Assembly (NCBI RefSeq): GCF_030161095.1
Contig: NZ_BSPP01000017.1
Coordinates: forward strand, 1 to 64,000
Origin: Cypionkella aquatica
Lineage (GTDB): Bacteria > Pseudomonadota > Alphaproteobacteria > Rhodobacterales > Rhodobacteraceae
Direction of reading: 5' to 3'
Length of the DNA: 64,000 bases
Position 1 is the first letter of the stretch, and each line of letters opens with the position of its first letter. The position numbers were made by a program, and so were the translations under genes. This document shows, in pieces, positions 29,756 to 31,605 of the stretch. Below the pieces are notes generated by a model. The model was not told the DNA's origin, did not search any database, and saw nothing but the letters and a program-made list of their open reading frames with translations.

Positions 29756-30394
29756 ATGGAAAAATTCACCGCCAGTTTCGCCTTTGAAATCGCAGCCCAT
29801 GCCCTTGGTCACGCCCATATCGCGGGTGTGGACGAAGTGGGCCGTGGCCCGCTTGCAGGCCCGGTCACCGCCGCCGCCGTCATCCTTGACCCGGAGCGAA
29901 TCCCACCCGGTCTGGCCGATTCCAAAGCCCTGACCGCCGCCCGCCGCGATGCGCTTTATGATGCGATCCTTGCCTCCGCTCATTGCTGTATCGCCCATGC
30001 CAGCGTCGAAGAAATCGACAGCCTCAATATCCTGCGCGCCAGCCATCTGGCGATGGAGCGCGCCGTGGCCGGTCTTGCCTTTCAACCCGACCATATCCTG
30101 ATCGACGGCAACCTGATTCCAGCGAATCTGAAGGGGCGCGCGCAGGCCATCGTCAAAGGCGACGCCAAATCACTTTCGATCGCAGCCGCCTCAATCATCG
30201 CCAAAGTGGCGCGCGATCGCATCATGGTGGATTTGGCGCAACAATACCCCGGTTATGGCTGGGAGCAGAACGCCGGATACCCGACAAAGTTGCATCAGTT
30301 GGCGCTCCTAAATCTTGGGGTCACGCCTGCGCATAGACGTTCGTTCAAACCTATCCACAATATGTTGTATCAAGATAAATCTGTAACCCCTTGA
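29756..30394 (+). CDS. rnhB: Ribonuclease HII
   Basis: A 212-residue RNase HII that cuts the RNA strand of RNA-DNA hybrids and removes single ribonucleotides. Catalytic acidic residues lie in [12 protein letters not shown] (D26, E27), ILIDGN and the downstream [12 protein letters not shown]; the Y-G-W-E-x-N-A-G-Y-P-T motif near the C-terminus is typical. The ATG at 29756 is the first plausible start; there is no clear Shine-Dalgarno. Its 3' end contains a near-DnaA box, and its stop overlaps a GANTC site. ccrM follows after 86 bases, a linkage common in alphaproteobacteria. Confidence 0.95.
30351..30359 (+). promoter_or_regulatory. Near-consensus DnaA box inside the 3' end of rnhB
   Basis: CTATCCACA matches the consensus TTATCCACA at 8 of 9 bases. 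It lies 65 bases upstream of the perfect box in the ccrM promoter. Confidence 0.4.
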
Positions 30395-30436
30395 TTCAAT
30401 AAAGAATTTGACGAGTTATCCACAATGACTCATTCT
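30393..30436 (+). promoter_or_regulatory. ccrM promoter region with GANTC sites and a DnaA box
   Basis: Within 44 bases are a GANTC site (GATTC, 30393-30397), a -35-like TTGACG (30408-30413), a perfect DnaA box TTATCCACA (30416-30424), a second GANTC site (GACTC, 30427-30431) and a -10-like CATTCT (30431-30436, spacer 17). The DnaA box fills the spacer and the second GANTC touches the -10. In Caulobacter, ccrM expression is cell-cycle controlled and GANTC sites occur in its leader, so methylation and DnaA could both act here. Element matches are seen directly; the regulation is inferred. Confidence 0.65.
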
Positions 30437-30459
30437 CTGCATCAACAAACGGTGAATAA

Positions 30460-31605
<1,146 letters not shown>

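Follow-up and report, generated by a model that had tools for sequence, protein, structure and literature searches.

The GANTC sites of Caulobacter crescentus ccrM lie in the leader of the gene. Transcription of Caulobacter ccrM, which has GANTC near its start, is described as linked to hemimethylation (PMC2217572), and Gonzalez et al. 2014 considered ccrM itself most probably methylation-controlled in this organism (PMC3973325). Caulobacter cell cycle promoters with GANTC between the -35 and -10 elements switch on at 40–60 min; the site is at about -29 in ctrA P1 and at -24 in podJ P2 (PMC4287350). Changing GAnTC to GCnTC cuts several GcrA-dependent Caulobacter promoters by 60–80% (PMC3667746). 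The published GcrA-activation motif is YGAKTCK, and no such extended motif was found in Brevundimonas (PMC7987155). In Caulobacterales and Rhodobacterales, a CGACTC motif is often conserved in the promoter of ftsZ (Gonzalez and Collier 2013, PMC3708114). The Agrobacterium gcrA promoter is repressed by CcrM methylation (PMC11514494), and a methylated site in the promoter of the CfrBI methyltransferase gene blocks RNA polymerase (PMC12707154). For ccrM, Brilli et al. 2010 predicted control by DnaA chiefly where there are no CtrA sites, and they judged GANTC counts uninformative (PMC2877005). The openly licensed literature searched held no account of ccrM timing in Rhodobacteraceae that we could find.

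The window, meaning the whole 64-kb stretch of Cypionkella aquatica DNA that was analyzed, contains a ccrM gene (30481–31605, forward strand) for a 374-residue cell cycle DNA adenine methyltransferase of GANTC with PF01555 and RAMA domains. The top NCBIfam model for the product is a CcrM model, at 642 bits, below its 830-bit cut-off. The upstream gene is rnhB (29756–30394, forward strand; PF01351 and NCBIfam RNase HII), and an 86-base gap separates the two. This order is conserved, with an rnhB match 5′ of ccrM in all 109 of the Rhodobacteraceae regions and in 34 of 39 regions from other families. The elements of the intergenic region are all read on the forward strand. GATTC (S1, 30393–30397) overlaps the rnhB stop codon (TGA, 30392–30394). 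It is followed by a putative -35 element, TTGACG (30408–30413), a perfect DnaA box, TTATCCACA (30416–30424), GACTC (S3, 30427–30431), and a putative -10 element, CATTCT (30431–30436), which lies after a 17-nt spacer, has CATCTT as its family consensus, and begins with the last base of S3. The position of the -10 element predicts a transcription start at 30443–30444, and GAGGCA (30471–30476) is the probable ribosome-binding region. No CtrA box, up to one mismatch from the consensus used (TTAA-N7-TTAA), was found in the 160 nt 5′ of the window's ccrM (L081). Rfam gave no match in the window and none up to E = 5 in 30330–30520.

A preliminary description of this DNA had reported GATTC at 30393, GACTC at 30427, the perfect DnaA box at 30416, and a near-match box, CTATCCACA, at 30351, and all four lie where it placed them. 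It had expected about 0.3 GANTC in the gap by chance. GANTC is about threefold depleted in the window (68 seen versus 225 expected from dinucleotide shuffles), so the window's own density gives only about 0.09 per 86 bases, and the two sites in the gap amount to about 20 times that density. It had also put the DnaA box in the spacer of the best -35/-10 pair, with one GANTC touching the -10 element. That pair, TTGACG-17-CATTCT, matches the consensus weakly and was not reported by a simple promoter scanner, but it coincides with alignment columns that are strongly conserved among the 186 relatives. The near-match box (30351–30359, forward strand), which had been taken as part of the promoter, is rnhB coding sequence (codons Pro-Ile-His). 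Only 6 of 186 distinct relatives carry a box within one mismatch at that register, and the sequence was rejected as a regulatory site. Boxes with at most one mismatch number 7 in the window versus 5.05 expected, so a one-mismatch box alone is not significant; the perfect match TTATCCACA occurs once.

The comparison drew on 219 loci (80 from genome records, 30 from family genomes, 29 same-genus matches in 15 genomes, and 80 from further family genomes). The family search comprised 30 loci and 80 of the 81 next listed matches, one being too near a contig end, and lower-ranked matches were left out. Fifteen loci without a usable ccrM/rnhB match, which were weak or partial matches from the genus search, were dropped, as were L027, L124, and L134 for being too short or partial; 201 sequences were left, of which 186 are distinct. 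Aligned on TTGAC, the 186 spacers carry GANTC at -15, +8, and +19 from this anchor, and the three sites are called S1, S2, and S3. All three are present, each within one base, in 152 of the 186 spacers and at least two in 177, although TTGAC was picked as the anchor for placing the most sites within one base, which favors this module slightly and makes the conservation of TTGAC itself a matter of construction. Individually, S1 occurs in 170, S2 in 174, and S3 in 170 of the 186 sequences. In promoter numbering, S1 spans -50 to -46, S2 spans -27 to -23 inside the -35/-10 spacer, and S3 spans -16 to -12 and abuts the -10 element; TTGACG occupies alignment columns 0–5. The consensus is TGATTCAAAAAAGAAWTTGACGGCGAATCGNCTTTGACTCATCTT, and its last six bases, 17 bases from TTGACG, resemble a -10 element with A at -11 in 98% and T at -7 in 99% of the 186 sequences. 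S1 and S3 share an extended palindrome, TGANTCA (TGATTCA in 159 of 170 S1 and TGACTCA in 140 of 170 S3). The GAGGCA string lies 3′ of the module in 175 of the 186 sequences. CcrM has a recognition site inside its own core promoter, S3 of the window abutting the predicted -10 element, and the S2/S3 register recurs within the family and outside it. The likeness to Caulobacter ccrM is the presence of GANTC near the start of the gene. The differences are that the Caulobacter gene is CtrA-activated (PMC2217572) whereas the window lacks a CtrA box, and that the window's GANTC sites lie in the core promoter in a fixed register with a DnaA box in the spacer.

In the leaders of 175 Rhodobacteraceae sequences, a small stem-loop is also predicted, located 3′ of the putative ccrM start and 5′ of GAGGCA. 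In the window it is CGGTG-AATAA-CACCG (30450–30464, forward strand; folding z = -1.78). The mean leader folding energy is -8.9 kcal/mol versus -3.8 kcal/mol for composition shuffles, and each of the 175 leaders folds below its own shuffle mean. There are many different stem sequences among them. The stem-loop was identified by folding each sequence by itself, a MAFFT alignment of 46 leaders having left the stems out of register.

The search across the Alphaproteobacteria covered 143 genomes, 121 of them with a match, and 99 of the 103 non-family matches above 370 bits were taken. One region was too short, leaving 98, some of which share a family or genus. S2 and/or S3 are in register (+7 to +11 and +18 to +20 from TTGAC, respectively) in 61 of these regions: both in 35, one in 26, and neither in 37. 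Shuffles of the same regions, which keep base composition only and handle TTGAC as in the data, give 0.005, 0.71, and 97.3, respectively. GANTC lies exactly at +19 from TTGAC 40 times in the 98 regions and 0–3 times at +16, +17, +18, or +20. The ccrM promoter is the only place in the window with GANTC at +19 (1 of 135 TTGAC), and flanking DNA has 8 in 666 TTGAC, four of which are one ccrM codon stretch. CtrA boxes upstream of ccrM are perfect in 0 and within one mismatch in 2 of the 109 Rhodobacteraceae regions, versus 7 and 26 of the 98 non-family regions. Two related genomes (G218 and G319; loci L228 and L229) have a perfect CtrA box 5′ of ccrM and 6–7 scattered GANTC, and the module is absent. 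Their layout resembles the Caulobacter ccrM arrangement.

Sequence comparison makes it rather probable that ccrM has a methylation-sensing promoter that is usually read by GcrA in Rhodobacteraceae and at which DnaA has been swapped in in the window's clade. S2 is the site that carries the GcrA signature. YGAKTCK, in either orientation, fits 141 of 174 S2 sites, 4 of 170 S1 sites, and 1 of 170 S3 sites, against a background of 130 of 600 GANTC in flanking DNA (22%). The window's S1 (TGATTCA) and S3 (TGACTCA) do not fit it, S2 is missing there, and the remaining S3 has its last base in the -10 element, versus an S2 between -35 and -10 in 174 of 186 relatives. The Caulobacter GcrA/CcrM promoters (ctrA P1, podJ P2, and mipZ) are alike in having GANTC between -35 and -10 at ctrA P1 and podJ P2, and the S2 of the relatives fits the GcrA motif. 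The cases differ in that ccrM is the target here, that S2 is absent from the window, and that the module is also present in genomes in which no GcrA was detected. The window's genome has a gcrA gene (G000:C7), the upstream region of which has one GANTC and lacks the module. GcrA was found in 30 of 30 selected Rhodobacteraceae genomes, including twelve outside the window's clade that have lost at least one of S1–S3 (G199, G206, G207, G006, G150, G039, G117, G171, G076, G182, G115, and G145), so loss of GcrA was rejected as an explanation for the missing sites within the family. A purely GcrA-dependent promoter, at which methylated S2 (and S3) would recruit GcrA-sigma70 in a positive feedback from CcrM to ccrM and the DnaA box would be a replacement activator in a clade that lost this input, would account for the S2 register and its extended motif, which match GcrA-activated Caulobacter promoters, and for the presence of GcrA in all 30 genomes; the GCnTC substitutions (PMC3667746) are in its favor as well. 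We consider this unlikely as the full explanation. Pfam and a profile built from 19 divergent GcrA proteins left 17 of the 98 non-family ccrM genomes without a convincing GcrA; the GcrA model also matched Sulfolobus in the control set, so its specificity is imperfect. Seven of these keep both S2 and S3 and five keep one, compared with 28 and 21 of the 81 genomes with GcrA, and across the 98 genomes the module showed no association with GcrA presence. The S2 motif was present in 22 of 43 cases with GcrA versus 3 of 10 without, which is not significant (p = 0.30). GcrA is not obligatory for the module, at least one of the two sites being kept in 12 of the 17 genomes in which no GcrA was detected. 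Moreover, S1 and S3 are conserved to nearly the same degree as S2 although only 5 of 340 fit the GcrA motif, and strict positive feedback would make recovery after methylation loss hard. GcrA probably reads S2 in Rhodobacteraceae, where ccrM would be a direct GcrA/CcrM target, and it is unlikely to be the sole reason for the GANTC sites of ccrM promoters.

The missing association with GcrA, together with the locking of S3 to the -10 element in and outside the family, favors direct methylation autoregulation as the only control, in which m6A at S3 or S2 would lower RNA polymerase binding in the manner of CfrBI and neither GcrA nor DnaA would have a role. CfrBI, AhdI, and LlaDII are precedents in that the site of the methyltransferase lies inside its own promoter (PMC12707154), and the Agrobacterium gcrA promoter, on which CcrM methylation acts as a repressor, is a further one (PMC11514494). 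The first three are restriction-modification systems with a nuclease, whereas CcrM is a solitary cell cycle enzyme. Direct autoregulation alone is doubtful, since it leaves the GcrA-type flanks specific to S2 (141 of 174 versus 22%) and the positioned DnaA boxes unexplained. The palindrome TGANTCA of S1 and S3 extends beyond the CcrM site, which could mean that the sites have a non-timing role, such as a local mark for another process, or are a by-product of a conserved TGANTCA-like promoter sequence bound by another factor. We hold this to be very improbable; the sites stand in the -35/-10 register rather than scattered, and that register is not seen elsewhere in the window. The remaining alternative concerns the DnaA box, which could be a chance replacement of S2 with no function. 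Confinement to one clade would fit a chance box, as would strict conservation common to the whole 88-nt spacer, including parts without a known site. However, the perfect match is kept in 6 of 6 clade genomes, in which the third codon positions of ccrM differ by 23–32% between the window and the five others, and perfect boxes occur on both strands at ccrM promoters in other branches. A functionless box is therefore quite improbable.

The DnaA box of the window (-27 to -19) overlaps the core promoter and stands exactly where relatives have S2. Thirteen same-genus sequences have a usable upstream region. Six, including the window, have the DnaA box at the S2 place. Four keep three GANTC, and two of these have a DnaA box just 3′ of the -10 element. 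Three lack S2 and S3 and have an inverted repeat, GAATGG...CCATTC, in the spacer, like Pseudorhodobacter antarcticus (L007). We infer that the DnaA box replaced S2 in the window's clade rather than the reverse. The other five clade genomes (L111–L115) differ from the window at 0, 0, 0, 2, and 1 positions of the 88-nt spacer, and given the divergence of the third codon positions the whole spacer is under strong constraint in the clade. The known sites explain only part of this near-invariance of 30393–30480 in the six genomes. In the loci L007, L008, L119, L120, and L121, which lack S2 and S3, the spacer has an inverted repeat, GAATGGGC-N7-GCCCATTC in L121 and less perfect in the others, which is a possible operator for some factor.

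Perfect DnaA boxes are present in 16 of the 186 distinct Rhodobacteraceae sequences. Nine on the forward strand and two on the reverse strand lie at -7 to +2, three on the forward strand lie within two bases of this register, and two are at the window's position. The 16 boxes in 13.2 kb of ccrM upstream DNA compare with 0 in 478 kb of flanks, a control that is mostly coding DNA rather than other promoters, and they are not independent (six come from the window's clade and two are identical). With one genome per genus, a box is found in 7 of 103 versus a shuffle mean of 0.01. The trait changed state at least 6 times on the ccrM tree (121 rows). Sequences that have lost S2 or S3 are weakly linked to presence of a DnaA box (5 of 22 versus 11 of 164; Fisher p = 0.026, kinship ignored), and the link is weaker for loss of any of S1–S3 (5 of 34 versus 11 of 152; p = 0.18, kinship ignored). 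In both orientations the box supplies the T required at -7, together with A at +2, a possible reason for the common register. The box is 2 or 4 bases from S3, depending on which of the two positions it takes, so bound DnaA could cover the start region and S3. DnaA is an add-on at ccrM promoters, because so few of the distinct sequences have a box. The prediction of DnaA control by Brilli et al. 2010 is close to the present case, and the fixed register, the S2/DnaA exchange, and the positioned box are found here and not described in their section 8 (PMC2877005). Neither the fixed S1-S2-S3 register nor the S2/DnaA exchange turned up in the search listings and passages of the openly licensed literature. 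The preliminary description, which had suggested that methylation state and DnaA may jointly time ccrM in an arrangement possibly different from that of Caulobacter, is supported in part: ccrM promoters are enriched in DnaA boxes, the near-absence of CtrA boxes sets their arrangement apart from that of Caulobacter, and methylation sites are a conserved, position-locked part of the core promoter within Rhodobacteraceae and beyond. It had proposed aligning the spacer across Rhodobacteraceae; the GANTC sites are conserved, but the combination of two GANTC and a spacer DnaA box occurs in six same-genus genomes only, and family-wide conservation of that box was rejected. The description caught a real feature, rarer by chance than it claimed, but generalized from a state peculiar to one clade. 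What holds generally is that the core of the ccrM promoter contains CcrM sites, and DnaA boxes are recurrent additions.

In the mechanism that we infer from these positions, which include the predicted transcription start, ccrM would be transcribed from a sigma70-type promoter into which the sites of CcrM itself are built, S1 at about -50, S2 in the spacer, and S3 at the -10 element. Fixed core-promoter places for these sites would let the promoter sense its own methylation and the passage of the replication fork, which turns full methylation into hemimethylation. In most Rhodobacteraceae, S2 has the GcrA-activation form and GcrA would bind there. A direct action on RNA polymerase is probable for S3, which is locked to the -10 element and persists in some genomes where GcrA was not detected; its full methylation most likely lowers transcription, which would give control a self-limiting direction. 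In the window's clade, DnaA bound at the S2 place would obstruct RNA polymerase and protect S3, which lies two bases from the box, against methylation, and the box would link ccrM to DnaA instead of CtrA or GcrA. More tentatively, and at somewhat less than even confidence, the paired GANTC at the -10 element and in the spacer may be the ancestral ccrM promoter of the class, a closed loop readable without GcrA. The spacer would then be a slot for exchangeable timers (a GcrA-type GANTC, a DnaA box, or an inverted repeat), and the Caulobacter CtrA arrangement would be a derived exception.

CtrA is an unlikely timer of ccrM where its box is missing. The same bases hold a GcrA-type site in some genomes and a DnaA box in their close relatives, which makes the window's clade a natural case of regulator swap. 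The fixed anatomy of the promoter makes ccrM timing directly testable through S2, S3, and the DnaA box, and the recurrence of this anatomy in alphaproteobacterial families besides Rhodobacteraceae suggests that the species studied best may be an atypical one.
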